This document shows positions 9,789 through 53,727 of a stretch of 64,000 bases of DNA, piece by piece (the stretch's first letter is position 1; each line of letters begins with the position of its first letter). The position numbers were made by a program, and so were the translations under genes. The notes beneath the pieces are model-generated. The model made no database searches, had not been told where the DNA came from, and saw only the letters and a list, made by a program, of their open reading frames with translations. This stretch comes from Enterobacter ludwigii (GTDB lineage Bacteria > Pseudomonadota > Gammaproteobacteria > Enterobacterales > Enterobacteriaceae): assembly GCA_900068845.1 (NCBI GenBank), contig CEFQ01000001.1, positions 190,983 to 254,982 on the forward strand, written 5' to 3'.

Positions 9789-9792
9789 CTGT

Positions 9793-9824
9793 TGAATTCC
9801 ATCTTGTATACCAGTTGGAATTCA
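9793..9824. promoter_or_regulatory. Long palindrome over the predicted start site, candidate GntR operator
   Basis: An inverted repeat of 16 base pairs with only two mismatched pairs (9802/9815 and 9805/9812), exactly centred on GTATAC (9806-9811). The outer arms are gaattcca (9794-9801) and tggaattc (9816-9823). A GTATAC-type core is common in FadR/FCD-type GntR operators, and such a regulator is encoded in the operon at 15254-15952. The palindrome spans about -6 to +26 of the sigma-54 transcript. Confidence 0.65.
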
Positions 9825-9827
9825 CCC

Positions 9828-11624: not shown

Positions 11625-11626
11625 GC

Positions 11627-15244: not shown

Positions 15245-15253
15245 GGAGTTGGC

Positions 15254-15952: not shown

Positions 15953-15980
15953 CAACATAAACACAGTTAGGGGTTTACTG

Positions 15981-17249: not shown

Positions 17250-17257
17250 GTGATAGC

Positions 17258-17317
17258 GGTCGCCATAAATGGCGCCCCTACATTAACCGTGCAGTAGGGT
17301 CGCCATTAATGGCGACC
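17258..17317. repeat. REP-like double palindrome inside the urt operon
   Basis: Two stem-loops in opposite orientation: ggtcgccataaatggcgcccc (17258-17278; inner stem cgcca/tggcg) and gtagggtcgccattaatggc ending gacc (17294-17317). They occupy most of the urtA-urtB gap. Such elements often stabilise upstream mRNA, which would favour high UrtA relative to the membrane subunits. Confidence 0.85.
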
Positions 17318-17341
17318 TCAATCTCCATCAGGGCCAGAACC

Positions 17342-20767: not shown

Positions 20768-20768
20768 C

Positions 20769-21467
20769 ATGCTGCAAGTGGCGGAACTGAATCAATATTA
20801 CGGCGGCAGCCACATTTTGCGCGGCCTGTCGTTTGAGGCCAAAGCGGGTGAAATCACCTGCCTGCTCGGACGCAACGGCGTGGGCAAAACCACGCTGCTG
20901 AAATGCCTGATGGGGCTGATTCCGGCTAAGTCCGGCGAAATTCGCTGGCAGGATAAAGTGATTAACAGCCGCAAACCGCACCAGCGCGTGCAGGCGGGCA
21001 TCGCTTATGTGCCGCAGGGGCGCGAAATCTTCCCGCGTTTGACGGTAGAAGAGAATCTGCTGATGGGGCTGGCGCGTTTTTCTGGCACCCAGGCCAAAGC
21101 GGTGCCGGAGGAGATCTACCAGCTGTTCCCGGTGCTGCGTGAGATGAAAGCGCGACGCGGCGGCGATCTGTCAGGCGGCCAGCAGCAGCAGCTGGCGATT
21201 GGCCGCGCCCTCGCCTGCAAACCAACGTTGTTGATCCTCGATGAACCCACCGAAGGGATCCAGCCCTCGGTGATCAAGGAGATCGGCGCGGTGATCCGCC
21301 AGCTGGCGCAGCGCGGCGATATGGCGATCTTGCTGGTGGAGCAGTTTTATGATTTCGCCGCCGAACTGGCCGACAGCTATCTGGTGATGTCACGCGGCGA
21401 GATCGTGCAGCGCGGTGCCGGATCCAGCATGGAAGCCGACGGCGTGCGGGGATTGGTGGCGATTTGA
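20769..21467 (+). CDS. urtE: Urea ABC transporter ATP-binding protein UrtE
   Basis: LivF-like ATPase, 232 aa. Walker A GRNGVGKTT (34-42), signature LSGGQQQQLAIGRAL and Walker B LLILDEPTEGIQPS are present; EGIQPS after Walker B is typical of UrtE/LivF. It starts 1 nt after the urtD stop and is the last gene of the operon. Confidence 0.95.
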   Translation: MLQVAELNQYYGGSHILRGLSFEAKAGEITCLLGRNGVGKTTLLKCLMGLIPAKSGEIRWQDKVINSRKPHQRVQAGIAYVPQGREIFPRLTVEENLLMGLARFSGTQAKAVPEEIYQLFPVLREMKARRGGDLSGGQQQQLAIGRALACKPTLLILDEPTEGIQPSVIKEIGAVIRQLAQRGDMAILLVEQFYDFAAELADSYLVMSRGEIVQRGAGSSMEADGVRGLVAI

Positions 21468-33504: not shown

Positions 33505-33805
33505 GCCATTTTGTTTAGCGTGGCGTCTAATGCATCCAGCTGCTGAAGGGCGAGTAAGATGGTGCTTCAAGCCTTTCAGCGGCTCATCCTTGCCATCCTG
33601 CCTTGCCTTCACTTTATGGTTAAAAAGATTCCCAAAACCAGAGCATGCATAAACACTGATAAAACATCACGTTGACGTTTTTTTCATCACTATGGTGAAA
33701 AGATACTCTGCAGTTCGCTCCTCATCAAATCCGTACTTCTTTATTGCCCGTTTGCATAATCATGCTGCTTACCTTTTAACGGCACCCACCTCTGACGCCT
33801 TGCTT
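33505..33805. other. Intergenic region after ytjB, no gene seen
   Basis: About 300 bp between ytjB and the first array leader. It has no convincing ORF. A loose inverted pair gctgaaggg / cctttcagc (about 33540-33580) may be a transcript end. Marks the left edge of the adhesin-like array. Confidence 0.5.
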
Positions 33806-33908
33806 CCAGACGTTTCTCGTAATGGCTGACTAACGCCTTCCACTACTCTTCACTCGGAATTTTCCCACTACCAGAAAACAGGCCTCCGCAGCGCGGTTGC
33901 CTGTTTTT
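33806..33908 (+). promoter_or_regulatory. Conserved leader 1 with terminator-like hairpin (class A)
   Basis: The 18-nt motif CCAGACGTTTCTCGTAAT (33806-33823) is followed by a hairpin: aaaacaggc (33875-33883) pairs perfectly with gcctgtttt (33899-33907), inner stem ccgc/gcgg, T-tract. The start codon is 47 nt beyond. The same arrangement precedes all five array genes. Confidence 0.75.
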
Positions 33909-33955: not shown

Positions 33956-36487
33956 ATGGAAATTTTAGACTTTACGGGTACCAAATATCTCGAACGCGCG
34001 GATACGCGCCCTACCTTCGGCGGCACCGCCGCCAGTGAAATTGGTAAAACCGGCTCCGTCGCGCTGATTCAGTTCGGCGGCCAGAACTACACCGTGAATA
34101 TCGGTATGGACGGCAAGTTCAGCTGGACCTCGCCGGTTGACGTCGCCGACGGTGAATACAGCCTGTCGATCATCATCCAGGATCGCGCCGGCAACCAGTC
34201 GTCACCGATCCTGCGCACCGCCATCATCGACACCACGCCGCCGGAAGCGCCAAAACTGCTGAAGCTTACCGACAACGTCGGCGATATTCAGGGCAGCTTT
34301 GATGAAAGCAAACCGACCGATGACAAAACCCCGACGCTGACCGGTATTGCGCAGAAAGGCGCGACCGTGTTCCTTAAAGACGAAGCGGGCAGCGTGATTG
34401 GCAGCGCGGTGGCGGATAAAGAGAGCGGCGTGTGGGTGATCACCCCAGTCACCGAACTGAGCGACGGCACCAATAACCTGACGCTGAGCACCCAGGAACT
34501 GTTTGCTGGCGAGACGCGCGTCAGCGCTGAATCACCGCTGGTGATCACTGTGGCACCGGATGCCGACAACGGCGGAGAACTGCCGCCGAACACCATTATC
34601 ATCACCAACGCCTGGGATGATGCAGGAGAAAACACCGGCATTCTGAACAACGGCGCGCTGACCGATGATGCGCAGCCGGAACTGCGCGGCTTTGCTTCCG
34701 CTGGCAGCACGGTGGTGATTTATTTCCGTGAAGTCGGCAGCGATGCCTGGGCAGGCAGCGCCACCGCCACGCTGAGCGGCCAGCAGTGGAGCTGGACACC
34801 TTCTGAAGCACTGCAGGCCGGCTACTATGAGTTCCAGGCCAGCATTGGTGATTACACCTCCGCGCTGTTCAGCCTGGAAATCGCCAGCCCGGACGATGCC
34901 GCGCGCCTGACGCGTATCGAATCCGCCTACGATAACTTCGGTAATGACGTCGGCTCGCTGGGCGACGGTGCCTATACCGATGACACCACGCCAACCCTGC
35001 GCGGGCGCGCTGAAGCCAACAGCCAGATTGTATTGCGTTATACCATGCTGGAGGGCGTAAGCGGTTCTGTGACGGTGGATGTTGACAACAGAGGAAACTG
35101 GAGCTGGACTCCAGATTCGGAACTGGAGATAGGTGACTGGATATTTGAGGTTCAAGCCTCTGATAAAGCAACCTGGAGTAAATCATTTAGTCTGCATATC
35201 AGTGGAGCAGAAGGACTCTTACCCGTCATTGATTATGTTTATGACGATTATGGTTACAGTGTCGGTAAACGCGTTAATGGTTCCACTACCGATGATGCAA
35301 AACCTACAGTGCATGGACATGGTGAAGCCAATAGCGAAATCATCTTAAGTTACCAAATCGCGGAAGGAACACCTGCTTCAGTTAGCGTACGCGTAGATGA
35401 AAATGGTAAATGGCAATGGACGCCTTCAGAAAAACTTCAGGATGGAAAGTGGACATTTGAAATTCAAAATTCGCAAGGTGCTAAAAATAATAGTTTTGAA
35501 TTGACCATTAATACCGAGTTATCAGGCGGCACGGAGTCCTATTTAGACTTTAGAGATGTTGCTAACAAGAACTATGACAATGGGCTTATTTTCAATATTG
35601 GTCGTTTTAAGGGTAATTGGCATGATTTTCTATCCATTTATAAATTATCTGAAAATGAACAGGGACTTACAATAACAGGAAAAAAAGGTGGCACTGCTCA
35701 CGTAGATTTGGAGTTAAGTTACAAAGCGACTACAGCTGTTTTTTTACTTGGTGCTTACAGTCCAACATCCAATGGACACATTAATGCATTTGATGAAGAC
35801 AACAATTTAATCGCACGGATACCTTATACTTACTCTAAAACGAGTGAGTATCATGTTATTAAAACCCAGACACCATTTACAAAATTACAATTTATCGCTC
35901 TTGAAGGTACGAGAGTATATTTATTTGACATTGAACTTAAACTCACCGGAGAACCTAATCCTAACGCCACTTGGCTGAATACATCTGAAGTTAATCATGA
36001 TGAAAGCATTAATTCCACCCTGCATATGATTGACGCTAACGACGACGATTCAGGCTACGAATTAACTCAAACCCAATCCGACAATTCAGCGGAAAATAAC
36101 AGCGCCACAACGCAAACCGACACCTTAACGCTGCTCGGTAAAGATCAACTTATCGATCTCAGCGTGGATAACGCGAAGTTTGAGGAAGTGAAAATTGTTG
36201 ATCTCACCGGCAAAGGCGATAACACGCTGAAACTCGATCTCAGCGCCCTGCTCGCCCACGGCGAACAGGATCTGCTGATCGAAGATGGCAAAACCCAACT
36301 TGTCGTCAAAGGCGACGCCGGCGACGTAGTGCAGCTCAAAGATATCCTGCCGGAAGGCAGCGACCTCAGCGAGTGGCAGCATCAGGACGGCACTGTCACC
36401 GTCGCGGGCGTCGAGTATCAGGTTTACAGCCACGGCGATGACGCGGAACTGCTGGTGCAGCAAGGCGTGAAAACCGAACTGATTTAA
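33956..36487 (+). CDS. Array gene 1: Ig-like repeat protein with T1SS-adhesin-type C-terminus
   Basis: 843 aa, no Sec signal peptide. The N-terminal beta domain (1-98; MEILDFTGTKYLERADTRPT, ending IIDTTPPEAP) is nearly identical in all five paralogues. Four Ig-like domains of about 100 residues follow (about 99-515), each with a [T]DD-x-PTLxGxA strand, a central VVIYYR/VVLRY strand and WSWTP. A variable AT-richer segment (about 525-680; INAFDEDNNLIARIPY ... VYLFDIELKL) looks like a ligand-binding beta-sandwich. The C-terminal part (about 690-843) resembles that of BapA-type type I secreted adhesins: KLDLSALLAHGEQDLLIEDG, VVKGDAGDVVQLKDILPEGS, ending LLVQQGVKTELI. AGGAAG precedes ATG by 8 nt. 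Secretion by a T1SS encoded elsewhere is inferred. Confidence 0.8.
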   Translation: MEILDFTGTKYLERADTRPTFGGTAASEIGKTGSVALIQFGGQNYTVNIGMDGKFSWTSPVDVADGEYSLSIIIQDRAGNQSSPILRTAIIDTTPPEAPKLLKLTDNVGDIQGSFDESKPTDDKTPTLTGIAQKGATVFLKDEAGSVIGSAVADKESGVWVITPVTELSDGTNNLTLSTQELFAGETRVSAESPLVITVAPDADNGGELPPNTIIITNAWDDAGENTGILNNGALTDDAQPELRGFASAGSTVVIYFREVGSDAWAGSATATLSGQQWSWTPSEALQAGYYEFQASIGDYTSALFSLEIASPDDAARLTRIESAYDNFGNDVGSLGDGAYTDDTTPTLRGRAEANSQIVLRYTMLEGVSGSVTVDVDNRGNWSWTPDSELEIGDWIFEVQASDKATWSKSFSLHISGAEGLLPVIDYVYDDYGYSVGKRVNGSTTDDAKPTVHGHGEANSEIILSYQIAEGTPASVSVRVDENGKWQWTPSEKLQDGKWTFEIQNSQGAKNNSFELTINTELSGGTESYLDFRDVANKNYDNGLIFNIGRFKGNWHDFLSIYKLSENEQGLTITGKKGGTAHVDLELSYKATTAVFLLGAYSPTSNGHINAFDEDNNLIARIPYTYSKTSEYHVIKTQTPFTKLQFIALEGTRVYLFDIELKLTGEPNPNATWLNTSEVNHDESINSTLHMIDANDDDSGYELTQTQSDNSAENNSATTQTDTLTLLGKDQLIDLSVDNAKFEEVKIVDLTGKGDNTLKLDLSALLAHGEQDLLIEDGKTQLVVKGDAGDVVQLKDILPEGSDLSEWQHQDGTVTVAGVEYQVYSHGDDAELLVQQGVKTELI

Positions 36488-36525
36488 TCCTCTCCCTCTG
36501 CTGGCATCCTGCCAACCGAGACAAA

Positions 36526-36560
36526 GGGTGCGTGAACATGAAGGTCACGCACTCTTTTTT
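36526..36560 (+). terminator. Terminator of array gene 1
   Basis: gtgcgtga (36528-36535) pairs with tcacgcac (36545-36552), with two further closing pairs and six T. 38 nt after the stop codon. Confidence 0.9.
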
Positions 36561-36615
36561 ATTGAATATCAACTATCACTCCTCATTTTTTCCTCCGTCA
36601 TTGCGCTACCTGCTT

Positions 36616-36712
36616 ACAGACGTTTCTGGTAATTCCCGACTAACACCTTCCACTAACCTTCACTGGCATTTTTCCTTCCCTAAAAGCGGCTGCCGCTATG
36701 CGACGCTTTTTT
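36616..36712 (+). promoter_or_regulatory. Conserved leader 2 with terminator-like hairpin (class B)
   Basis: ACAGACGTTTCTGGTAAT (36616-36633), then aaaagcg (36682-36688) pairing with cgctttt (36704-36710) and a T-run ending at 36712. The ATG is 42 nt downstream. Hairpin sequence shared with leader 3, not with leaders 1 and 4. Confidence 0.72.
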
Positions 36713-36753
36713 CTCTAACCGGCACCTTCCGATAACACAGGAAGCAACACACT

Positions 36754-39270
36754 ATGGAACTTTTAAACTTTACGGGTACACGCTATCTCGAACGCGCGGA
36801 TTCGCGCCCCACCTTCGGCGGCACCGCCGCCAGTGAAATTGGTAAAACCGGCTCCATCGCGCTGATTCAGTTCGGCGGCCAGAACTACACCGTGCAAATT
36901 GGTCTGGACGGCAAGTTCAGCTGGACCTCGCCGGTTGACGTTCCCGACGGTGAATACAGCCTGTCGATCATCATCAAGGACCGTGCCGGCAACCAGTCGG
37001 CACCGATCTTGCGCACCGCCATCATCGACACCACGCCGCCGGAAGCACCAACGCTGCTCAGCTTGTATGACGATCAGGGCGAGAAGAAAGCCTTCCTGCC
37101 AGGCGATACCACCGATGACAAAACGCCAACCTTGACCGGCCTTGCACAGAAAGGTAGTACCGTATTTTTGAAAAACGGTGATGAAATTATCGGCAGCGTG
37201 GTCGCGGACAAAGTCACCGGCGAATGGGTAATAACCCCTGCCATCGAACTGAATGACGGCATCAATAACCTAACACTGAGCACTCAGGAAGTATTTGACG
37301 GCAAGACGCGCGTCAGCGCTGAATCACCGCTGATCATCAACGTGGCGCCGGACGGGGATAATGGCGGCGAACTGCCGCCGAATATCGTTACCATCAACTA
37401 TGCCATTGATAACCAAGGTGTTAACACAGGTGTGATTAGCAGTGGCGCACTGACCGATGACGATACGCCGGAATTACGCGGTGCGGTATCAGCCAGCAGC
37501 AACGTGGTGGTTTATTATCGCCTCGCCGGCAATGACGTGTGGGCCGGTAGCGCTGTCGCCACGATTGAGGGTCAGAACTGGCGCTGGACACCACCTTCAG
37601 CGCTGGCAAGCGGCAGCTATGAATTCCAGGCCAGCACCGGTGATTTTTCTTCTGCTCCCTTTATTCTGCAAATTGCCAGCCCGCAAGATTTGATTGCCAA
37701 AACGACCGTTGATTACGCCATTGATAATGTCGGAGTAAATACCGGACTGCTGACAGATGGTGCCTGGACGGATGATGCGAATCCAGAACTACATGGTCGC
37801 GGCGAGGCCAACAGCACCGTATGGCTTTACTATCGCAATGATGCCGGTGCCTGGTCCGCGCTGGCGTCGGTAAAAGTGGGCGCAGATGGCAACTGGATTT
37901 ATACCACCGAACGTTTGCTAAGAGGTGAGTACGAATTTAAAGTGCTGCCCACTAACGATAGCGACATTGAGACAACGTCACTGCATGTAAAAGTGATTGC
38001 TGAAGGCAATAATGTGCCTGAGATACTCTATGCCGACGATAATGTAGGTGGCTATCGCGGACCGATTTTTTCAGGTGAAAAGACCGACGATAAAACGCCT
38101 GTAATTGTTGGTAAAGCGGAAGCCCACAGTATTATTTTTATTGAATATCAGACGGTTGGAGGTCAGTGGCAGAGCGGCTATTCCGCTCAAGCAGACAGCA
38201 GCGGCGTGTGGAGAATTAAAGACATTCCTGATCTAGCGGCAGGTCATTATCTCTTCCGAGCCAAGAGTTCCGATAGTAATGGTTACAGTAATGACTTTGG
38301 GCTGGAAGTATTAAGAAATGATGAAACGTCAACTATCATTGAAGACTTTAATCGGTTTAAAGGACATAACGTTGAGTCAGGTACAATATTTAATATTGGC
38401 AGAATAACAAGCGGCGACGACAGTGTATTACGTGTTTCCGGAACCAATCTAAATGTTGACTCAACAAATACGTATTACACCATTGACTTGAATTACGAGG
38501 CTTTATCGGTCTCCATGATTTTATATGATTATATTGGTTCAGGAAGAAATCAAGCAAGCATATTGGTATTTGATGCCAAAGATAGGCTACTTGAAAGAAG
38601 ATATATCGATATTAGCCAAAATGCCTATAATGACATATTCATACAGCCCGTGGTCCCCCTTACAAGAATCGTAATTTATAGCGGAAAACAGGCAATTAGA
38701 AGCATTGATAACATCAAGGTTGAATCAAATGGAGAAATCAATCCTAATGCAACCTGGCTGAATGATAAATCCAATGAAGATAATAGCAACATTAATTCGA
38801 CCCTTCATATGATTGACGTGAATGACGAAGACTCAAGCTACAAATTGACCCGAACCCAATCCGACAAAACAGCGGACAATAACATCATTACAACTCAAAC
38901 CGACACCTTAACGTTGTTCGGTAAAGATCAGCTTATCGATCTCACCGTGGATAACGCGAAGTTTGAGCAAGTGAAAATTATTGACCTCACCGGCAAAGGG
39001 GATAATGCGCTTAAGCTCGATCTCAACGCCTTATTGCAACATGGCGAAAAAGATCTGTTTATTGAAGATGGCAAAACCCAGCTGATAGTCAAAGGCGACG
39101 CCGGCGACGTGGTGAAACTCAAAGACATCCTGCCGGAAGGCAGCGACATCAGCGAGTGGCAGCATCAGGAAGGTACTGTCACCGTCGCGGGCGTCGAGTA
39201 TCAGGTTTACAGCCACGGCGATGACGCGGAACTGCTGGTGCAGCAGGGCGTGAAAACCGAACTGATTTAA
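36754..39270 (+). CDS. Array gene 2: Ig-like repeat protein with T1SS-adhesin-type C-terminus
   Basis: 838 aa. Constant N-terminus (MELLNFTGTRYLERADSRPT), Ig-like domains at about 99-520, a variable segment at about 525-675 (IEDFNRFKGHNVESGTIFNI ... AIRSIDNIKV, whose IDN-IKV end is common in carbohydrate-binding beta-sandwich domains), and constant C-terminus. Domain 2 carries INNLTLSTQEVFDGKTRVSA and GGELPPN, shared with gene 1, so 1 and 2 are close relatives there; the variable segment is not alike. No signal peptide. Same predicted role as gene 1. Confidence 0.8.
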   Translation: MELLNFTGTRYLERADSRPTFGGTAASEIGKTGSIALIQFGGQNYTVQIGLDGKFSWTSPVDVPDGEYSLSIIIKDRAGNQSAPILRTAIIDTTPPEAPTLLSLYDDQGEKKAFLPGDTTDDKTPTLTGLAQKGSTVFLKNGDEIIGSVVADKVTGEWVITPAIELNDGINNLTLSTQEVFDGKTRVSAESPLIINVAPDGDNGGELPPNIVTINYAIDNQGVNTGVISSGALTDDDTPELRGAVSASSNVVVYYRLAGNDVWAGSAVATIEGQNWRWTPPSALASGSYEFQASTGDFSSAPFILQIASPQDLIAKTTVDYAIDNVGVNTGLLTDGAWTDDANPELHGRGEANSTVWLYYRNDAGAWSALASVKVGADGNWIYTTERLLRGEYEFKVLPTNDSDIETTSLHVKVIAEGNNVPEILYADDNVGGYRGPIFSGEKTDDKTPVIVGKAEAHSIIFIEYQTVGGQWQSGYSAQADSSGVWRIKDIPDLAAGHYLFRAKSSDSNGYSNDFGLEVLRNDETSTIIEDFNRFKGHNVESGTIFNIGRITSGDDSVLRVSGTNLNVDSTNTYYTIDLNYEALSVSMILYDYIGSGRNQASILVFDAKDRLLERRYIDISQNAYNDIFIQPVVPLTRIVIYSGKQAIRSIDNIKVESNGEINPNATWLNDKSNEDNSNINSTLHMIDVNDEDSSYKLTRTQSDKTADNNIITTQTDTLTLFGKDQLIDLTVDNAKFEQVKIIDLTGKGDNALKLDLNALLQHGEKDLFIEDGKTQLIVKGDAGDVVKLKDILPEGSDISEWQHQEGTVTVAGVEYQVYSHGDDAELLVQQGVKTELI

Positions 39271-39308
39271 TCCTCTTCCTCTGCTGGCATCCTGCCAACC
39301 GGGACAAA

Positions 39309-39344
39309 GGGTGTGTGAACATAAAGGTTCACGCACTCTTTTTT
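39309..39344 (+). terminator. Terminator of array gene 2
   Basis: gtgtgtgaac (39311-39320) pairs with gttcacgcac (39327-39336) through ten base pairs (one G-U), then tctttttt. 41 nt after the stop. Confidence 0.92.
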
Positions 39345-39398
39345 ATTGAATATCAATTAACAACCCTCTTTTCTCCTCCTCCACCGCGATACCTGCTT

Positions 39399-39496
39399 AC
39401 AGACGTTTCTCGTAATTCCCGTCTAACACCTTCCACTAACCTTCACTGGCATTTTTCTTTCCCTAAAAGCGGTTTCCGCTATGCGGACGCTTTTTT
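39399..39496 (+). promoter_or_regulatory. Conserved leader 3 with terminator-like hairpin (class B)
   Basis: ACAGACGTTTCTCGTAAT (39399-39416), then aaaagcg (39465-39471) pairing with cgctttt (39488-39494), T-run to 39496. ATG at 39539. Nearly the same as leader 2 over its whole length. Confidence 0.72.
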
Positions 39497-39538
39497 CCTC
39501 TCAATGGCAACTTCGGATAACACAGGAAACAACACATT

Positions 39539-42109
39539 ATGGAAATTTTAGACTTTACGGGTACACGCTACCTCGAACGCGCGGATGCGCGCCCTACCTT
39601 CGGCGGCACCGCCGCCAGTGAAATTGGCAAAACCGGCTCCGTCGCGCTGATTCAGTTCGGCGGCCAGAACTACACCGTAGAAATCGGTATGGACGGCAAG
39701 TTCAGCTGGACCTCGCCGGTTGACGTCGCCGACGGTGAATACAGCCTGTCGATCATCATCCAGGACCGCGCCGGCAACCAGTCGGCACCGATCCTGCGCA
39801 CCGCCATCATTGATACCACGCCGCCGGAAGCGCCAACACTGCTGAATCTGTATGACGATCAGGGTCATAAGAAAGCCTTCCTGCCGGGCGAAACCACTGA
39901 TGATAAGCGTCCAACTCTTACCGGCTCAGCCCAAAAAGGCAGCATTGTGATTCTGCGCGACGCAGAAGACACCATCATCGGCAGCGCAAAAACCGGGGCA
40001 GATGGTATCTGGAAGATGGATCCGAGCGTTGATCTCAAAGACGGAACCAATAATCTGACGCTGGAAGCGCAGGAAACCTTCGCCGGTGCAGAGCGCACCA
40101 GCGGTAAATCTCAGCCGTTCAGCATCATCATCGCCAGCGACGGCGTAGCTCCCGGCACCATCACCATTAATAACGCCTACGATGATGCAGGCGAAGCGAT
40201 GGGAACGCTGAGCGATGGCGCACTCACCAACGACACCACCCCAACCCTGAACGGCGATGTGTCTACCGGTGAATCCGTGGTTGTCTATTATCGCCTGGCA
40301 GGCAGCAATGTGTGGGCCGGTAGCGCCACTGCAACCATCAGCGGCGATAGCTGGAGCTGGACGCCTGACAGCGCACTGGGCAATGGGCTGTATGAGTTTC
40401 AGGCGAGCAGCGGTGACGTCAGCAGCGCCTTGTTCTCGCTGGATATCGCCTCAGCAGAGCAGATTCTTCAGCGCACGCGCATCGAATCGGCGCTGGATGA
40501 TTTTGGTCAGGATCGCGGGCCGCTGGCCGATGGCGCCATCACTGATGATGCTACGCCGACGCTGCTAGGCCGGGCCGAAGCCAACGGCCGCGTTGTAATA
40601 CGCTATTCTGTGCCAAATGGCGATATTGCCACCGTAGTGGTGGATGCCGACAGTGGCGGGAACTGGCGCTGGACACCTGAAAGTCAACTTGCGAGCGGTA
40701 TCTGGTCATTTGACGTTCAACCGCAGGGTGAATCGGCATGGAGCAAGGCATTTACGCTGCAGATCAGCGGCAGCGGAGAAAATGATTTCAAACCCGAAAT
40801 CAGCTACGCCTTTGATGATGTTGGTAGTTCCACTGGCGCACGCTATAACGGCGATACAACCGATGACACCACCCCAACGCTGCACGGTAAAGCACAGGCC
40901 AACAGCGTGGTGTATATTCAGGCAACGCAGGGTGCAGAAGTGCAGGTGTTTAGCGTGCAGACCGATGCGGCAAGCAACTGGCAGTGGACGCCACCGGCGG
41001 AATTAACCAAAGGCAGTTGGTCGTTCCAGGTGAGTAAAGGCGCAGGCGATGGCTGGGGTGAGGCGTTTAGATTAAATATTGGCAGCACCGGGAGTTATTC
41101 TGGTGAAGTGGACTTTGAAAATCCCCCACCGGGATTTGCATTCGATTATGTAGTGACTAATCCATTCGGAAACCGAACCTACATCTATAAAACTCATATA
41201 GAGGGTATCTCACTCGTTTATACCGATAATGAACGTGCTCCTAAAATTGGAAAGGTAGTTGGCGGTCCAACATCCTTTGGAAGTCATGCGTTAATATTAT
41301 GCGAACCATCTTTAACCAATAAAGTTAGTGACTTAACATTTGACTTGCATAATTATCTGACAAGCAGACAAACAATAAAAAGCTTTAGCTTTGAAGTTTA
41401 TAACCCATCATCCTCCACGCAAAAAATGTATTTAAATATGAAGGGTAACTTTATAGGCCTTTCTGAAGATAAAAATTTCACATTCGTGACCATAGGAGCA
41501 AAACAAACACGTATAATTACTGAAAAAGATTTCCCAAAAGGATTCCTTGACAAATCGACTCAGGAAATAACCATAGGAAGTAATAGCAGCAGTGAAGTTT
41601 GGATTGATAATTTCAAATATCAGATTGGCGACTTTGAAAAAAAAACCACTGTTGCCAGCGAAGATGACCAAAGCTTGCATTATTTAAACGGCGTTGACGA
41701 GCTGACCAACCTTTCCCTTATTGGCAACGAACAGCAAATCGATACGCTAATTATTAACGGCAAAGATCAGGTTATCGATTTAACCACGCTCGAGCATAAA
41801 CTCGAATCGGTTGAAGTTATCGATATTACTGGCAGCGGTGACAACACGTTGAAGCTGGATCTCAGCGCCCTGTTGCTGCACGGCGAAAAAGATCTGTTTA
41901 TCGCAGACGGCAAAACCCAACTAGTCGTCAAAGGCGATGCCGGCGACGTAGTGCAGCTCAAAGACATCCTGCCGGAAGGCAGTGACCTCAGCGAGTGGCA
42001 GCATCAGGAAGGCAGCGTTACCGTTGCAGGCGTCGAGTATCAGGTTTACAGCCACGGCGATGACGCGGAACTGTTGGTGCAGCAGGGCGTGAAAACCGAA
42101 CTGATTTAA
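39539..42109 (+). CDS. Array gene 3: Ig-like repeat protein with T1SS-adhesin-type C-terminus
   Basis: 856 aa. Constant N-terminus with TRYLERAD, as in gene 2. Ig-like domains at about 99-515, including DDATPTLLGRAEANGRVVIR. The variable segment (about 518-700; SGEVDFENPPPGFAFDYVVT ... SEVWIDNFKYQIGD) is unrelated at a glance to those of genes 1, 2 and 5 but is also lower in GC and ends in a WIDNFKY strand. The C-terminal block starts later (NGKDQVIDLTTLEHKLESVE) and joins the constant end at KLDLSALLLHGEKDLF. No signal peptide. Confidence 0.8.
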   Translation: MEILDFTGTRYLERADARPTFGGTAASEIGKTGSVALIQFGGQNYTVEIGMDGKFSWTSPVDVADGEYSLSIIIQDRAGNQSAPILRTAIIDTTPPEAPTLLNLYDDQGHKKAFLPGETTDDKRPTLTGSAQKGSIVILRDAEDTIIGSAKTGADGIWKMDPSVDLKDGTNNLTLEAQETFAGAERTSGKSQPFSIIIASDGVAPGTITINNAYDDAGEAMGTLSDGALTNDTTPTLNGDVSTGESVVVYYRLAGSNVWAGSATATISGDSWSWTPDSALGNGLYEFQASSGDVSSALFSLDIASAEQILQRTRIESALDDFGQDRGPLADGAITDDATPTLLGRAEANGRVVIRYSVPNGDIATVVVDADSGGNWRWTPESQLASGIWSFDVQPQGESAWSKAFTLQISGSGENDFKPEISYAFDDVGSSTGARYNGDTTDDTTPTLHGKAQANSVVYIQATQGAEVQVFSVQTDAASNWQWTPPAELTKGSWSFQVSKGAGDGWGEAFRLNIGSTGSYSGEVDFENPPPGFAFDYVVTNPFGNRTYIYKTHIEGISLVYTDNERAPKIGKVVGGPTSFGSHALILCEPSLTNKVSDLTFDLHNYLTSRQTIKSFSFEVYNPSSSTQKMYLNMKGNFIGLSEDKNFTFVTIGAKQTRIITEKDFPKGFLDKSTQEITIGSNSSSEVWIDNFKYQIGDFEKKTTVASEDDQSLHYLNGVDELTNLSLIGNEQQIDTLIINGKDQVIDLTTLEHKLESVEVIDITGSGDNTLKLDLSALLLHGEKDLFIADGKTQLVVKGDAGDVVQLKDILPEGSDLSEWQHQEGSVTVAGVEYQVYSHGDDAELLVQQGVKTELI

Positions 42110-42145
42110 TCGCGCTCGCCGCTGGTATTCTGCCAGCCTCTGACA

Positions 42146-42181
42146 AGGGTGTGCCAACCTGCGCGTTGCACACCCTTTTTT
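42146..42181 (+). terminator. Terminator of array gene 3
   Basis: gggtgtg-c-caac pairs with gttgcacaccc with one bulged C, followed by six T (agggtgtg begins at 42146). About 40 nt after the stop codon. Confidence 0.88.
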
Positions 42182-42233
42182 ATTGCTTGCACAACAAACT
42201 TCACACCCGCTTCCCGTATAGCGGCGGCCGCTT

Positions 42234-42336
42234 CCAGACGTTTCTCGTAATGGCTGACTTACGTCTTCCACTACTCTTCACTCGGAATTTTCTCACTACA
42301 AAAAAACAGGCTTCCGCAGCGCGGTTGCCTGTTTTT
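42234..42336 (+). promoter_or_regulatory. Conserved leader 4 with terminator-like hairpin (class A)
   Basis: CCAGACGTTTCTCGTAAT (42234-42251), then aaaacaggc (42303-42311) pairing with gcctgtttt (42327-42335). ATG at 42384. Nearly identical to leader 1, although the genes are 8 kb apart with two class B units between them. Confidence 0.75.
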
Positions 42337-42383
42337 AACTCCCCGACACGGCAATTTTTGACAACAACAGGAAGCACTACGCT

Positions 42384-45300
42384 ATGGAAATTTTAGACTT
42401 TACAGGTACCAAATATCTCGAACGCGCGGATTCGCGCCCCACCTTCGGCGGCACCGCCACCAGTGAAATTGGTAAAACCGGCTCCGTCGCGCTGATTCAG
42501 TTCGGCGGCCAGAACTACACCGTGGAAATTGGTCTGGACGGCAAGTTCAGCTGGACCTCGCCGGTTGACGTCGCCGACGGTGAATACAGCCTGTCGATCA
42601 TCATCCAGGACCGCGCCGGCAACCAGTCGTCACCGATCCTGCGCACCGCCATCATCGACACCACCCCGCCGGAAGCGCCAACGCTGCTCAATCTGTATGA
42701 CGACCACGGCGACCTGCAGGGCAGCTTTGACAGCGGAAAAATCACCGATGATGCGCGCCCGACCCTGACCGGTATTGCGCAGAAAGGCAGCGTGGTGATG
42801 CTGCTGAACAGCGACAATCAGGTTATTGGCAGCGCCCAGGCCGACAGCAAAACTGGCGTCTGGGTGCTAGAACCCGCGCAGGATTTACCCGACGGTGACA
42901 ATGCGCTGCACCTTGTGGCCAGCGAAGTTTTTGCTAACACTCCGCGTACCGGTTCGGATTCGGCCGTGTTCCACATCGTCGTCGGTCAGGACGGCCTGCC
43001 GCCCGGCAGCATCAGCATCAGCGACGCCTTTGACGATGCTGGCAGCGTAACCGGCACGCTCAGCGACGGCGCACTGACCGATGACGTCACGCCAACCCTC
43101 AACGGCACGGCCACTGCGGGCAGCACCGTGGTAATTTACTATCGCCTCGCGGGCTCGGATATTTGGGCCGGCAGCGCTACTGCCACGCTCACTGGTGAAA
43201 AATGGAGCTGGACGCCGGACGCCGCCCTAGCCGCCGGTCACTATGAGTTCCAGGCCCGCAATGCCGATAAAGCCTCAGCGCTGTTCACGCTGGAGATTGC
43301 TAACCAAGACGATATCCTGGCCCGTACCCGCATCGACAGCGTGTTCGACGACGTGGCCCCCAGCACCGGCCTGCTGGAAAGCGGTGCCCTCACCGACGAC
43401 AGTACGCCAGCCTTCCGCGGCAGCGCCGAAGCCAACAGCCAGATTACACTGCGCTATACCCTGGCAGGTGGCGAAAGCGCCACCCTGACGGTCAATGCCG
43501 ACAGCCGGGGCCAGTGGAACTGGACGCCGCAGCCGGCCCTCGCCGCAGGCAGCTGGATCTTTGAGGTTCAGGCGCAGGGACAGACAGCATGGAGCGACGC
43601 GTTCAGCCTGCAGATTGCAGCCGGCGGCGACAGCAGCCTCGATCCCGTCATTCTTTACGCAGACGATAACGCCGGAGCCGACACCGGCCAGCGCAATCAT
43701 GGTGACGTTACGGATGACACCACACCAACGCTGCACGGCCGTGCTGAAGCGAACAGTGTGGTTTACCTGCGCTACAGCAGCGCGGGCATGGATCCGCAGC
43801 TGATCAGCGTGACCGCTGATGCCGCCAGCAACTGGGCCTGGGAACCGCCGACCGACCTGGCAATCGGAGACTGGCTGTTTGAGGTTTCAGCCAGCGGCAC
43901 GTCCGACTGGCAGGCCTTTTCACTGTCAATCGCCCCGGACGTCTCCACCGACCCGCTGATTACCCACGTGTGGGATGACGTGGGCGTGACGGGTAACGTG
44001 CCGGAAAATGGCCGCACGAACGACACCCGTCCGACTGTGCACGGCACCGGCATTGCGGATAGCACCATCATTCTGAAATACACCCCGGCGAGCGGTGCAG
44101 CCGCTTCCGTTACGGTTAATGTCGGGGCAGACGGCAGCTGGGCGTGGACGCCTTCCGCTAACCTTAAAAAAGGCGGCTGGACGTTTGAGGTGTTTAAAAC
44201 AGGAGAGACTAGCGGCGACAGCTTCACACTGATCATTGATTCCACTTTTGATCGCAACGCGGTGATAACCAAGGCTTTCGATAACGTTGGATTTGAACAA
44301 CAGGATCTGATGAAAGGGGATACCACCGACGACACCCGACCGGAGCTGGTGGGCACCGGTCCTGCGGATACGGTGATTCAGCTGCGTTATCGCCTCGCCA
44401 GCGGTGAATATGCTCAAGCCAGCGTGACCACGGATGCCAGCGGCAACTGGCGCTGGACGCCAGACAGCGATTTAGCTACTGGCACCTGGACCTTTGAGGC
44501 GCAGAAAGCGGGACAGAGCGATTGGAGCAGTTTCTCACTCAAAATCGATCCGGAATCCGGCAATAACCCTACGATACTTTACGCAGAAGACAATTTTGGT
44601 AACGAAACTGGCGCTATTTATAGCGGGGATTCTACAGATGATAAAACCCCAACGTTTATCGGACAGGGTGAGCCCAACAGCATTATCGTTCTGAGATTGA
44701 AAAAAGCCAGCGCGGTAACTTATACGGTAAAAGTGGATGCAGACGGCACCTGGCGCTATTCCGACTTAGGTAATTTGTCAAACGGCGCTTACGAGCTTTC
44801 CGTAAGGAAAAACACTCAAGATTCAGCATGGAGTGATATTTTTAAATTAAAAATTGATGATGGTATCATTCCTCTTCCTTCCGCCCCATCATTTGTAATA
44901 TATGATGATTTCGGTCCTGTCAGTAATCATGCTATTGGTCATTATGGCTTCAGTGATGATTTTACCCCCACCCTAAAGGGAGATTCTGCGCCGCCTAATG
45001 GCATTGTTTATATTGAAGGCTTTTTAAAATATTCCCCATGGAATTCTTTAGGATCCGTCGTCGCGGATAGCAATGGTAAATGGGAGTTCAATCCTGGCAC
45101 TTTAAATAAATCGGGTCCATGGTGGTTCCGTGCGAATACTTTAGCTCCGGACGCCGAAGTCAAAAGTAAATGGACACCAGCTTACATCGTCAATATCCAT
45201 GCGCCAGGCGACCATTTTAAAGCAAAGATTACAAGTGTTTTAGGTGACAATGGAGAAGTGGTTGAAAACGGCTCAGTAGTAACAAACGAGATTTCAGTTA

Positions 45301-46013
45301 AAGGAACTGCATTGCCCTATGAAAAAATACACCTTTCTATAACAAAGGAGAACGGTGGAGGAAAATCATATTCAATTTCAGCAGATATTAATGGTAACTG
45401 GGATTTAATGACGACTTTTATGAGCCAAGGGTCGGGGCGCTACACAATTACGGCTAGTACCTCGGATACTGCAGGTGTAAACTACTCCACCACATTTGCA
45501 TTCAGAATAGTTAGTAGCACCTCGTCACTGAATGATATACAGGAAAATGATGGCGGAGAGGTTATGTTAATTGACAGCAACGATGAAGACTCGGGTTATC
45601 AATTATTGAGTAGTCACCAATCCTCCGACGGTAAAACAGCGGAAGATACGCTGGTATTACTGGGTAAAGACCAAATGATTAATTTATCTGAAGCTAACAC
45701 GCTACTCGATAATATAACCCATTTTGATATCACTGGAACCGGTGATAACACCATCCAGCTCGATCTCAGCGCCCTGCTCGCCCACAGTAAACAGGATCTG
45801 CTGATCGAAGACGGCAAAACCCAACTTGTCGTCAAAGGCGACGCCGGCGACGTAGTGCAGCTCAAAGATATCCTGCCGGAAGGCAGCGACCTCAGCGAGT
45901 GGCAGCATCAGGAAGGCACTGTCACCGTGGCCGGCGTCGAGTATCAGGTTTACAGCCACGGCGATGACGCGGAACTGTTGGTGCAGCAGGGCGTGAAGAC
46001 TGAACTGATTTAA
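42384..46013 (+). CDS. Array gene 4: longest Ig-like repeat protein, about ten Ig-like domains
   Basis: 1209 aa. Constant N-terminus (TKYLERAD as in gene 1), then about nine more Ig-like units of about 100 residues up to about 1035. Domains to about 810 are GC-rich and regular (for example DDTTPTLHGRAEANSVVYLR, TNDTRPTVHGTGIADSTIIL); the last two (PSAPSFVIYDDFGPVSNHAI ..., GEVVENGSVVTNEISVKGTA ...) are AT-richer and divergent, and take the place of the beta-sandwich segment of the other paralogues. Constant C-terminus ends QQGVKTELI. The sixth domain is nearly the same as the third domain of gene 5. Confidence 0.8.
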   Translation: MEILDFTGTKYLERADSRPTFGGTATSEIGKTGSVALIQFGGQNYTVEIGLDGKFSWTSPVDVADGEYSLSIIIQDRAGNQSSPILRTAIIDTTPPEAPTLLNLYDDHGDLQGSFDSGKITDDARPTLTGIAQKGSVVMLLNSDNQVIGSAQADSKTGVWVLEPAQDLPDGDNALHLVASEVFANTPRTGSDSAVFHIVVGQDGLPPGSISISDAFDDAGSVTGTLSDGALTDDVTPTLNGTATAGSTVVIYYRLAGSDIWAGSATATLTGEKWSWTPDAALAAGHYEFQARNADKASALFTLEIANQDDILARTRIDSVFDDVAPSTGLLESGALTDDSTPAFRGSAEANSQITLRYTLAGGESATLTVNADSRGQWNWTPQPALAAGSWIFEVQAQGQTAWSDAFSLQIAAGGDSSLDPVILYADDNAGADTGQRNHGDVTDDTTPTLHGRAEANSVVYLRYSSAGMDPQLISVTADAASNWAWEPPTDLAIGDWLFEVSASGTSDWQAFSLSIAPDVSTDPLITHVWDDVGVTGNVPENGRTNDTRPTVHGTGIADSTIILKYTPASGAAASVTVNVGADGSWAWTPSANLKKGGWTFEVFKTGETSGDSFTLIIDSTFDRNAVITKAFDNVGFEQQDLMKGDTTDDTRPELVGTGPADTVIQLRYRLASGEYAQASVTTDASGNWRWTPDSDLATGTWTFEAQKAGQSDWSSFSLKIDPESGNNPTILYAEDNFGNETGAIYSGDSTDDKTPTFIGQGEPNSIIVLRLKKASAVTYTVKVDADGTWRYSDLGNLSNGAYELSVRKNTQDSAWSDIFKLKIDDGIIPLPSAPSFVIYDDFGPVSNHAIGHYGFSDDFTPTLKGDSAPPNGIVYIEGFLKYSPWNSLGSVVADSNGKWEFNPGTLNKSGPWWFRANTLAPDAEVKSKWTPAYIVNIHAPGDHFKAKITSVLGDNGEVVENGSVVTNEISVKGTALPYEKIHLSITKENGGGKSYSISADINGNWDLMTTFMSQGSGRYTITASTSDTAGVNYSTTFAFRIVSSTSSLNDIQENDGGEVMLIDSNDEDSGYQLLSSHQSSDGKTAEDTLVLLGKDQMINLSEANTLLDNITHFDITGTGDNTIQLDLSALLAHSKQDLLIEDGKTQLVVKGDAGDVVQLKDILPEGSDLSEWQHQEGTVTVAGVEYQVYSHGDDAELLVQQGVKTELI

Positions 46014-46047
46014 TCGCTCAACAGATTGTCACTTAGCCAATGACTGC

Positions 46048-46085
46048 AAAGGGTGGGCGAGCTTAGGCTTCGCCCACCCTTTTTT
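46048..46085 (+). terminator. Terminator of array gene 4
   Basis: Perfect 10-bp stem gggtgggcga (46051-46060)/tcgcccaccc (46070-46079) with A residues before and six T after. 38 nt after the stop. Confidence 0.93.
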
Positions 46086-46121
46086 ATATACATTACCCCT
46101 CGCGCCCGACTCGCCCCGCTT

Positions 46122-46220
46122 CCAGACGTTTCTCGTAATCATTAACTTACTGATTCCACTAATCTCTTCCAGGATTTTTCCCATTAAACAAAGAGCGCCC
46201 GCATGTCTGCGCCTCTTTTT
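46122..46220 (+). promoter_or_regulatory. Conserved leader 5 with terminator-like hairpin (diverged)
   Basis: CCAGACGTTTCTCGTAAT (46122-46139), then aaagagcgc (46190-46198) pairing with gcgcctcttt (46209-46218) with one bulged C, T-run to 46220. ATG at 46268. The motif is exact but the rest of the leader has diverged, while the hairpin shape is kept. Confidence 0.7.
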
Positions 46221-46267
46221 ATCTTCATTTGACAGCAAGTTGCGACAACTTCAGGACGCATGACATT

Positions 46268-48436
46268 ATGGATATTTTTGAATTTATGGACACGCAATAC
46301 ATTGAGTGGGCAGATGCGCGTCCAATCATCAGCGGCACAGCAGCCACTGAAGTGGGCAAACTGGGCTCACAGGCGCTTATTCAGTTCGGTGGCCAAAATT
46401 ACACGGTGGATATCGATATTAATGGCCTTTTTAGCTGGACCTCGCCCGTAGATATCGCTGACGGGGAATACAGTTTGTCGATCATCATTCGCGATGCCGC
46501 GGGCAACCTATCTCCTCCTCTCCTGCGCACCGTCATCGTGGACACCACGCCGCCTGAAGCGCCCGCATTGCTCAACCTTTACGATGACCAGGGCGACGTA
46601 ACGGGCAGCTTTGACAGCGGTAAAAGAACCGATGACGCGCGTCCAACCCTAAGCGGTGCAGCGCAGAAAGGCAGCCTGGTCATGCTTCTGAACAGCGATA
46701 ATGAGGTGATTGGCAGCGCACGGGCCGATAGCGAAACCGGCGTCTGGGTACTGGAGCCTTCACAGGATTTACCGGAGGGTGACAACGCGCTCCATCTGGT
46801 TGCCAGCGAAGTTTTTGCCAACGTCGAGCGCACCGGTTCGGATTCAGCGGTATTTCACATTGTAGTCGGCCCGGACGCACCACCCGAGCCGCAGATCACC
46901 TACGTTTGGGATGACGTTGGCGTTACTGGCAATGTGCCGGAAAATGGTCGCACCAATGACACGCGTCCGACCTTACACGGCACCGGCCTTGCCGACAGCA
47001 TCATCATTCTGAAGTACACACCCGAGCGCGGCGCAGCGGCCTCCGTCACGGTTCAGATCGGGGCGGATGGCAGCTGGCAGTGGACGCCGCCGACCAATCT
47101 TAAAAATGGCGGATGGACGTTTGAAGTGTACCGTAGCGAAGAAAGTGCGCATGACAGCTTTGCACTGGTCATTGATCCGACCGCTGACCTTAGCGCTAGC
47201 ATTGATTTTATTTACGATAACCTTGATGACCTCACTCCCGCTGGCTACCTTAAAAATGGTGATACAACCGATGACACCACACCGTCACTGTCAGGTATGG
47301 CCAGAGCAGCAACGGTGGTCAATATCTATGACGATGGCAAATTAATAGGTTCTACACTTTCAGATGCCAAAGGTCACTGGAGCTGGACACCCTCGCAGCC
47401 GTTAGCAAATAATCATTATGAGTTTAATGTCGCTCAGGTAATTGATGGAAAAGTGACTCAGCATTCTGAAAATTGGGCGATAGATATTAACTCGCTAAAA
47501 GGTGATGGTACGATCGAACGCTTTGATTACAAAAAAGCTATAGACTTAAAAGCGGGTGATACCGTTACTTTGAGTCACACAGGTCTTCAGCTTGAAGTCT
47601 CAGAAAATATATGGTTCAAGAATAACAACTCACGAATAGCCACCGATAGTAATTATTATGATAAAAGAGCGAACGCAGATAGCGGTGTTTTACAAATTGG
47701 CGTGGGCGCCATTATGCGTTTCACCCTTCCAGAAAAAGGTCATGACATAGTATTAACTTTCCATAATAAATTTCAAAATTATAGAAGTAGCGATGCCAGA
47801 ATTAAAGCTTATGATGAGGATAATAATGAGGTGGCAAATTATGAATTAAAATTTAGCCCCGATCCTTTTGGCTCAGCCTCGAGTGTTTTTTATGGCCGCG
47901 ATAGAACCGAAAACGTTAAAACCATTGTCATCGTTGGTGACACTAAAAACCCTCTAGATATACTTTCTCTGGGATGGAAGAAATATCCAACATCCGTGCA
48001 AACGCTTTCTGATAACGCTACTGAAAACTATGACAAACATGCTTATTCTGATGAAAAAGAAATAAACACTACTTATATTCTCCACGGGCAAGACCAGCGT
48101 ATCGATGCCTCGTTAATCGTTAAAGATCAAGCGGAAATCAATACTTTCGACATTACCGGAAGTGGTAACAATACCTTAATCATTGATGTTGCAACGCTAT
48201 TGCAAAATGGTGAACAGGATCTGTTTATTCAGGATGGTAAAACCCAGCTTATGGTCAAAGGCGATGCCGGTGACGTGGTGCAGCTCAAAGATATTCTGCC
48301 GGAAGTCAGCGACATCAGCGGGTGGCAGTATCAGGACGCGACTATTACCGTTGCCGGCATTGAGTATCAGATCTACAGCCACGGCGATGACGCGGAACTG
48401 CTGGTGCAGCAGGGCGTAAAAACTGAACTGATTTAA
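46268..48436 (+). CDS. Array gene 5: Ig-like repeat protein, most divergent paralogue
   Basis: 722 aa from the ATG at 46268 (MDIFEFMDTQYIEWADARPI); an in-frame TTG at 46229 lies further upstream and lacks family similarity. N-terminus is about two-thirds identical to the others by eye, so this copy has diverged or escaped conversion. Three Ig-like domains follow (about 99-400), including VWDDVGVTGNVPENGRTNDT shared with gene 4, then a variable segment (about 415-590; GAIMRFTLPEKGHDIVLTFH ... IKAYDEDNNEVANYELK) and the constant C-terminus, ending QQGVKTELI. Same predicted secretion. Confidence 0.78.
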   Translation: MDIFEFMDTQYIEWADARPIISGTAATEVGKLGSQALIQFGGQNYTVDIDINGLFSWTSPVDIADGEYSLSIIIRDAAGNLSPPLLRTVIVDTTPPEAPALLNLYDDQGDVTGSFDSGKRTDDARPTLSGAAQKGSLVMLLNSDNEVIGSARADSETGVWVLEPSQDLPEGDNALHLVASEVFANVERTGSDSAVFHIVVGPDAPPEPQITYVWDDVGVTGNVPENGRTNDTRPTLHGTGLADSIIILKYTPERGAAASVTVQIGADGSWQWTPPTNLKNGGWTFEVYRSEESAHDSFALVIDPTADLSASIDFIYDNLDDLTPAGYLKNGDTTDDTTPSLSGMARAATVVNIYDDGKLIGSTLSDAKGHWSWTPSQPLANNHYEFNVAQVIDGKVTQHSENWAIDINSLKGDGTIERFDYKKAIDLKAGDTVTLSHTGLQLEVSENIWFKNNNSRIATDSNYYDKRANADSGVLQIGVGAIMRFTLPEKGHDIVLTFHNKFQNYRSSDARIKAYDEDNNEVANYELKFSPDPFGSASSVFYGRDRTENVKTIVIVGDTKNPLDILSLGWKKYPTSVQTLSDNATENYDKHAYSDEKEINTTYILHGQDQRIDASLIVKDQAEINTFDITGSGNNTLIIDVATLLQNGEQDLFIQDGKTQLMVKGDAGDVVQLKDILPEVSDISGWQYQDATITVAGIEYQIYSHGDDAELLVQQGVKTELI

Positions 48437-48456
48437 TCTTATCCAGCTAAAAATAA

Positions 48457-48486
48457 AGCCGCATCCCTTCCGGGTGCGGCTTTTTC
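48457..48486. terminator. Terminator after array gene 5 (also serves yjjG)
   Basis: gccgcatcc pairs with gggtgcggc (one G-U) between A-rich and T-rich flanks (aaataaa / ttttt). Placed between convergent array gene 5 and yjjG. Confidence 0.88.
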
Positions 48487-52632: not shown

Positions 52633-53727
52633 ATGAAATTACAATCTTATGATGAGTTGAAACAGAGTAAATATCGGCTATCGCTGATGCTCTTTCTGTT
52701 TCTCAATGTCGCCGTTTCGCTTTTTTTCCTGCTGCCTATTTTAGGCAGTGATAACCCAATACGGTCGTTGCCGGTGGCCGTTGTGGCGGGCTTCAGCAGC
52801 ACACTGCTGGTTATTTGCTTAATGGCGTCAAAACAAAAATTACCGCTATTAAATCCTGTCGCTTTTATATTGGGTGCGCTGTGGGCGTGGCATATTAACC
52901 ACAGATATCATCTGGTTTATTATTTTGATGGCAGTTTTCTACTCATCAGCCTGTTAAGCGTCTTTTTTATCAGTGCCATTGCCTTAAGTGATTATTTAAT
53001 CGCATTTTGTTTACACATCGCACCGCCGGTATTCACCGTGCTGTTATTGGATGATGGTCAGCATTTAATGATGATCTTATTCACTATAATGCTGCCTTTA
53101 ATCGGTTTTTCACTGCACCATTTAATGCGTCGTCGTTTTGATACCTTTACCCGTCGGCTGGTGAGCCAACTGTACGAGGAAAAAGAGAGCTTCAGCGATT
53201 TGAGCATGCTCGATCCGCTTACCGGCTTGTATAATCGCCGTGGATTGAAAAATCGCCTCGATACCATCATGGAAAACCACGCTGGCAGCCACTTTGTGCT
53301 GCTGCTGGATATCGATCACTTCAAGGCCTACAACGACAATTACGGTCATGCGATGGGCGATCAGGCGCTGGCACGCGTGTCGGTGGCGATTCGCGACGCG
53401 GTGCGGTCGCGGGATGTGGTGACGCGCTACGGCGGCGAAGAGTTTTTGGTGTTGATGACCAACGTCAACGCCTCAATTGCGATGAAATTGGCTGAACGTA
53501 TTCGCCAGTACGTGGTGGATTTGGAGATTCCGCATCGCTTCAATGAGAAAGTCTCGACGCATGTCACCGTCAGTGCCGGGATTGCCCCGATTTTCGATGA
53601 AGATTTTGACCAGGCGGTGATCAACGCCGACCGCGCGCTGTATGTCGCGAAAAATCAGGGACGTAACACTATCCTGGCGTGGGAAGATTTGCCGAAAGTG
53701 ACGCAGGTGAGTAGCGAAGTTTCGTAA
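52633..53727 (+). CDS. Membrane-bound diguanylate cyclase (GGDEF)
   Basis: Synthesises cyclic di-GMP. 364 aa: a hydrophobic N-terminal sensor region (about 15-165) with roughly six membrane segments, a short coiled stretch, and a GGDEF domain (about 193-355) starting DPLTGLYNRRGL. The active site is GGEEF (267-271), and the inhibitory site RxxD is present as RSRD (258-261), five residues upstream, so product feedback is expected. Absent from this position in E. coli, where yjjZ and fhuF are adjacent. Cyclic di-GMP commonly controls adhesin export, but no direct link to the array is visible. Confidence 0.93.
   Translation: MKLQSYDELKQSKYRLSLMLFLFLNVAVSLFFLLPILGSDNPIRSLPVAVVAGFSSTLLVICLMASKQKLPLLNPVAFILGALWAWHINHRYHLVYYFDGSFLLISLLSVFFISAIALSDYLIAFCLHIAPPVFTVLLLDDGQHLMMILFTIMLPLIGFSLHHLMRRRFDTFTRRLVSQLYEEKESFSDLSMLDPLTGLYNRRGLKNRLDTIMENHAGSHFVLLLDIDHFKAYNDNYGHAMGDQALARVSVAIRDAVRSRDVVTRYGGEEFLVLMTNVNASIAMKLAERIRQYVVDLEIPHRFNEKVSTHVTVSAGIAPIFDEDFDQAVINADRALYVAKNQGRNTILAWEDLPKVTQVSSEVS

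Follow-up and report, generated by a model that had tools for sequence, protein, structure and literature searches.

Five tandem genes for putative secreted rod-shaped proteins with shared ends and variable, predicted sugar-binding tips in a genome labelled Enterobacter ludwigii

The stretch of DNA analysed here, referred to as the window, comprises 64,000 nucleotides of Enterobacter ludwigii assembly GCA_900068845.1 (contig CEFQ01000001.1, positions 190,983 to 254,982). Between smp (ytjB) and yjjG it carries an array of five genes on one strand (+), whose positions and lengths had been given correctly in an earlier note on this DNA: g1 (33956-36487, 843 aa), g2 (36754-39270, 838 aa), g3 (39539-42109, 856 aa), g4 (42384-46013, 1209 aa) and g5 (46268-48436, 722 aa from the ATG at 46268). 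Each of g1, g2 and g3 encodes an N-terminal block (N block), a stalk of immunoglobulin-like (Ig-like) units, a tip listed as jelly-roll-type (modelled for g2 and g3), and a C-terminal block (C block, the last 98 aa) that is a putative type I secretion end. The longest Ig stalk is that of g4, which has no separate tip, while g5, the most divergent gene, has the shortest stalk and a tip. N blocks (aa 1-98) are located at 33956-34249, 36754-37047, 39539-39832, 42384-42677 and 46268-46561, and C blocks at 36191-36484, 38974-39267, 41813-42106, 45720-46010 and 48143-48433, for g1 to g5 respectively. Intergenic gaps in the array measure 254-274 bp, and a conserved leader is located 5' of every gene.

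The Pfam domain Big_13 was detected in the stalks of all five proteins, with three to ten Ig-like units per protein as counted with a family profile, and the N block also appeared Ig-like by inspection. All five proteins exceeded the cut-off of 50 bits for NF033510, a family of adhesins with calcium-stabilised repeats (72.6-121 bits), and no Sec signal was seen on inspection of their N-termini. Tips, together with linkers, span 35522-36190 in g1 (GC content about 0.36 in the tip), 38323-38973 in g2, 41087-41812 in g3 and 47498-48142 in g5. In these four of the five genes the tip is AT-rich and placed between stalk and C block, and a Pfam search of the four tips gave no significant match; a CBM_56 match, first taken for a tip hit, sits in the Ig stalk and falls under the cut-off. 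The pattern of constant ends and variable middles described in the earlier note was confirmed, except that g4 lacks a separate tip: the unit adjoining its C block (45207-45719) is Ig-like, though diverged (26.3 bits for Big_13, cut-off 27).

Divergence was calculated block by block, with synonymous divergence (dS) obtained by the Nei-Gojobori method with Jukes-Cantor on script alignments. For the six pairs among g1-g4, N blocks were 90-96% identical in amino acids and 93-97% in nucleotides (dS 0.07-0.17), in agreement with the claim that the constant blocks are alike even at nucleotide level. The C blocks of these pairs were 83-90% identical (dS 0.25-0.68), and the final 20 residues were identical in all five proteins. 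First Ig units shared 50-66% of their residues (dS 0.83-1.94), and tip regions 12-28%, with dS above 2 or saturated and most pairs beyond alignment. The flanking blocks were not as divergent as the middles, either within the array or in the orthologous pairs described below. In 60-nt sliding windows along g1-g4, identity was 90-100% for windows starting at about +24 to +217 and fell to 48-60% for starts at about +324 to +397, the change at the end of the N block spanning about 100-150 nt. The description of these ends as nearly invariant held for g1-g4 but was weaker for g5, in which the N block was 68-71% (dS 0.89-1.27) and the C block 73-76% (dS 0.70-1.01) identical to those of the other genes. 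The blocks have separate histories, since g5, despite its diverged N block, shares 85% of its first Ig unit with g4. Either g5 is older or its N block escaped homogenisation.

Replacement of tips was apparent between close relatives. Genomes G056 and G057 form a sister pair, with five flanking genes at dS 0.035-0.088, and their genes G056_3 and G057_2 are orthologous by location and stalk. Their stalks (aa 99-415) are 96% identical (dS 0.18) and their C blocks 97% identical, while the tips share 27% of residues, with a dS of 1.9 and a nonsynonymous divergence (dN) of 0.75. The N blocks of this pair are only 74% alike because the N block of G056_3 is the one found in its sibling genes. The same pattern was observed for G056_1 and G057_1 (stalk 91%, tip 28%, C block 99%). 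Two adjacent genes of G074 have N blocks that are 99% identical, C blocks that are 95% identical and tips that are 43% identical, and G004_3 and G004_4 share 90% of the stalk, 97% of the C block, 36% of the N block and 34% of the tip. Sequence comparison shows shared ends and Ig-like stalks in the array and, between close relatives, tips that were replaced with stalk and C block kept. The proposal of a diversifying set is supported, with middles and copy number both varying among close relatives.

Tip diversity across the family was assessed in 108 of 122 proteins (the best 120 of 268 hits and two own proteins), those admitted having tips of at least 150 aa and scoring more than 95 bits for the C block, with the end unit of g4 counted among the tips. 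There were 64 tip clusters at 50% identity and 14 by single linkage at 30%, the largest with 74 of the 108 members. The C block matched in all 5778 pairs of these proteins (median 62%) and the N block in 5683 (median 43%), while a tip match was missing in 4154. GC content was 0.33-0.40 in tips versus 0.51-0.60 in stalks (ten genes, three other genomes). No silent cassette was detected for the g3 tip, which occurred once in its own genome with one 33% match in G057 (61 genomes), or for the G056_3 tip, which was found once (16 genomes). Neither tip has a second copy in its own genome, and the source of the tips is therefore likely to lie outside. Structures were predicted for the tips of g2 and g3, and both were predicted to be jelly rolls resembling carbohydrate-binding modules (CBMs); the top structural match of the g2 model was 9q5u, a CBM of the RTX-adhesin split-domain kind. 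These two models suggest that the tips are jelly rolls of the CBM kind.

Two observations complicate the picture of tip exchange. In several comparisons of the G056/G057 type the dS of stalk and C block was above that of the flanks, and G056_1 and G056_2 share 88% of the tip while the preceding Ig unit is 59% identical, so the tips are not the sole moving parts. An unlikely alternative is that the genes encode secreted adhesins whose tips accumulate point substitutions rapidly under diversifying selection, with gene conversion homogenising ends and stalks and no exchange of cassettes. High tip dN in orthologous pairs (0.7-0.8), the plainly homogenised ends of paralogues and the large single-linkage group, which fits one old tip superfamily, are all in keeping with this process. 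However, tip dS is saturated too (1.3-1.9, versus 0.18 for the stalk and 0.04-0.09 for the flanks), and the tip boundaries are sharp.

The genome analysed was taken to be that of a Pantoea bacterium, and named database matches were mostly from Pantoea, with a few entries labelled Enterobacter, Kluyvera or Enterobacteriaceae; a locus pattern search for named relatives gave 25 matches, none of which was confirmed. The array is not fixed across the genus, the C block being present in 10 of 61 genomes (profile, E at most 1e-8). Among 343 sampled genomes of the family it was found in the genome analysed here and in five genomes representing four other genera (E no higher than 1e-10). Tandem copies, whose numbers are lower bounds in draft genomes, were observed in G004 (four), G056 (three), G057 (two), G074 (two) and G065 (two, of 383 and 1191 aa) within the genus and in G096 (four) and G103 (two) from two other genera. 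C-block genes of G054 are located at the ends of contigs C21, C6 and C27 and are probably arrays split by assembly.

The arrays occupy differing sites, as judged from neighbouring genes that were named by eye in the other genomes, and therefore arose or inserted at several places. A hydantoinase-like pair and an Lrp-like gene flank the G004 array, and an RND efflux operon and a phosphoethanolamine-transferase-like gene flank those of G056 and G057. The pairs in G074 and G065 adjoin a MocR-like regulator, a site at which G001 has a single gene, and G074 also has a single gene at the site of the G004 array. At the site of the array in the window, smp and yjjG are adjacent in six of ten relatives checked, and in G004 and G054 another gene, of 443 aa and presumably HipA/YjjJ-like, lies directly 3' of smp. 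By eye, positions 33505-33570 of the window, 3' of smp, look like the end of this gene, which the array may have displaced. Outside the array, the genome analysed carries an orphan relative of 1035 aa at C5:651331 and, at C4:196 kb, a C-block protein of 1045 aa that is more distantly related. The C block was detected in one of 72,556 plasmid records (Pantoea sp. SOD02); phage and plasmid matches ran through the Ig repeats and were mostly weak. Four further Ig-repeat proteins (L043, L044, L045 and L046; 1186, 621, 1576 and 503 aa) have C-termini unlike the C block, three of which look alike by eye. Genes that appear OmpA-like by eye adjoin C-block adhesin genes (L039 8047-8925; L133 10789-11679; L135), and their products may anchor or assist these adhesins.

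As the earlier note had observed, there are no type I secretion system (T1SS) genes in the window, and none lie beside the array, which stands between smp and yjjG; the genome search that it proposed for an orphan T1SS identified candidates on C4 and C5. T1SS-A (C4:144617) consists of an LssB-type ATP-binding cassette (ABC) protein, HlyD and a TolC-like protein, with no adhesin gene among its listed neighbours, and its ABC protein scores 866 bits against TIGR03375 (cut-off 693.1). T1SS-B (G000:C4:352435-368154, L040-L042, where G000 is the genome analysed) combines a BapA orthologue of 5239 aa with tolC, ABC and hlyD genes, the ABC protein being 67% identical to that of the Salmonella BapA exporter. 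T1SS-C is a third ABC-HlyD pair (L048 7798-11796) beside a 597-aa protein of no assigned kind. An orthologue of the T1SS-A ABC protein (88% identity or more) was present in 11 of the 61 genus genomes, namely all ten C-block carriers and one of the 51 others, G051 (P=1.2e-10 by Fisher's test, with no correction for kinship). Each of the five carriers from other genera (four in number) has a relative of this protein at 64-79%, and the best relative in ten non-carriers, picked from 337 genomes without a C-block match, reached 58%. In G004, G054, G056 and G057 a paralogue (69-70%) shares contig and strand with a large C-block adhesin, its coding end lying within about 11 kb of it; in G004 just two small genes, both on that strand, lie between paralogue and adhesin, and in G057 there are several intervening genes, some in the opposite orientation.

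This co-occurrence and linkage indicate that the exporter of the array proteins is likely to be the LssB-type T1SS-A encoded elsewhere. Export through T1SS-B, which is BapA-type, or through T1SS-C was considered improbable. Both systems are present in the genome and T1SS-B occurs in all ten carriers, but it is widespread too, and the C-terminus of its 5239-aa substrate, the BapA orthologue, is unrelated. No T1SS-C orthologue was reported in four of the ten carriers (G001, G065, G013 and G070), this system is common in non-carriers, and the linkage in G004 is to an LssB-type paralogue. The LssB-type exporter has a gene nearby that is GGDEF-like by eye (L047 3812-5290), and a diguanylate cyclase gene (52633-53727 of the window) lies close to the array, a possible link with cyclic di-GMP.

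There is very little probability that the set serves competition, with the variable part acting as a toxin or receptor decoy of polymorphic kind: a constant body with a variable domain and recent swapping would fit, but the variable part is internal, the C-terminus being constant, the 254-274 bp gaps hold no gene in a listing of open reading frames of 100 aa and therefore leave no room for the usual immunity genes, and the two modelled tips resemble binding modules.

The array proteins were compared with known adhesins. A resemblance of the C-terminus to BapA-type proteins, proposed in the earlier note, was rejected: the C-block profile scored 2.1 bits against the C-terminal 200 aa of the Salmonella protein (E 0.048, four sequences), and the genome has its own BapA orthologue as a separate protein with an exporter. 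Support was obtained for a diversifying set with blocks alike in nucleotides, for the lack of a type I exporter beside the array, with candidates elsewhere in the genome, and for variation in copy number and middles. Full-length g1 matches bapA records via its repeats, and Salmonella BapA resembles the array proteins in having Ig-like repeats, a partner (presumed for the array) of the type I exporter class and no Sec start. However, it has 3824 aa and an RTX-type end and is encoded beside its own tolC-ABC-hlyD genes, whereas the array consists of tandem genes for proteins of 722-1209 aa with an unrelated C block, a putative remote exporter and swapped tips. Blp2 (NF040520) has Ig-like repeats of a similar size class, and membership of this family was rejected (90.8-193 bits against a cut-off of 750). 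Rap proteins of Rhizobium are small, type I secreted proteins with cadherin-like domains, several per genome, and putatively bind polysaccharide; they are not known to form a constant-end tandem array.

A profile match was also obtained to structure 2yn3, of SiiE. SiiE of Salmonella is similar to the array proteins in its stalk of bacterial Ig domains and type I export, the latter presumed for the array, and differs in being a single 595-kDa protein with its own exporter and no tandem set (PMC5466336). BapP of Pseudoalteromonas tunicata, which is needed for biofilm, is likewise a mid-sized beta-sandwich adhesin (1,600 aa) that is potentially type I exported, unlike the array in its predicted Sec signal, N-terminal propeller and single gene (PMC12153261). 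RTX adhesins with CBMs in split domains include AhLap of Aeromonas hydrophila, with 5047 residues (PMC12077191), and FrhA of Vibrio cholerae and an A. veronii adhesin (PMC10865825). They share with the array an Ig-like extender stalk, a ligand module near the C-terminal end and type I secretion, the last being presumed for the array. They are single giants, whereas the array encodes short, separate tandem proteins with a module that is replaced among close relatives. Type I adhesins with Ig-like stalks are already known, and so are CBM-bearing RTX adhesins (PMC12077191, PMC10865825). No report of short rods encoded in tandem, their ends constant and their tips replaced as a whole, was found in the literature searched.

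The leader motif CAGACGTTTCTNGTAAT is present on the + strand 5' of all five genes (g1 33807-33823, g2 36617-36633, g3 39400-39416, g4 42235-42251 and g5 46123-46139). Written as the pattern CAGACGTTTCT-N-GTAAT, it has five exact copies in the genome, all 5' of array genes; two mismatches added four more sites, equal to the number for the reversed control. AGAC-NNN-TCT was read by eye, without a chance control, in 17 of 17 aligned leaders (five own, four G004, three G056, two G057 and three G074), about 100-170 nt 5' of the ATG, and was absent upstream of all four G096 genes and of the C5 orphan. A leader attenuator was considered and set aside: a hairpin and T-run precede the ATG in the array's own leaders, most clearly in g1 and g4, and are absent from those of G056, G057 and G074. 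An Rfam search gave one chance match. Terminator-like stem-loops on the + strand 3' of g2 (39306-39341), g4 (46048-46082) and g5 (48455-48483) come from a consensus scan with 23 calls versus 17.5 in shuffles, which is little above chance. Elsewhere in the window, positions 9792-21467 contain urea carboxylase and urea ABC transporter genes.

Taken together, the five genes probably encode a set of secreted, rod-like adhesins whose main difference would lie in the tip, an exchangeable part predicted to bind sugars. The C block would act as the signal for an LssB-type T1SS encoded elsewhere, the Ig units would form a calcium-stiffened stalk, and the tip would bind a glycan or other surface ligand. 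Homologous recombination between the near-identical flanks could duplicate genes and swap in tips from other strains, giving each cell lineage its own tip set. A broader proposal, plausible though somewhat short of probable, is that the lineage maintains an array of cassettes for short type I secreted rods, each with a fixed export end and stalk, and substitutes whole tips with AT-rich members of a large pool of exchanged modules, as an adhesion counterpart of polymorphic toxins that confers strain-specific surface specificities. If this is true, plant- and animal-associated Pantoea would hold a ready-made library of exchangeable binding heads with rod and exporter in common, and the binding specificity of type I adhesins could be tested on individual short soluble proteins instead of giants of 5000 residues. 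The 64 tip types among the 108 proteins would be a rich source of binding modules yet to be characterised, and the family would provide a natural system linking tip exchange among sister strains to host or surface range.
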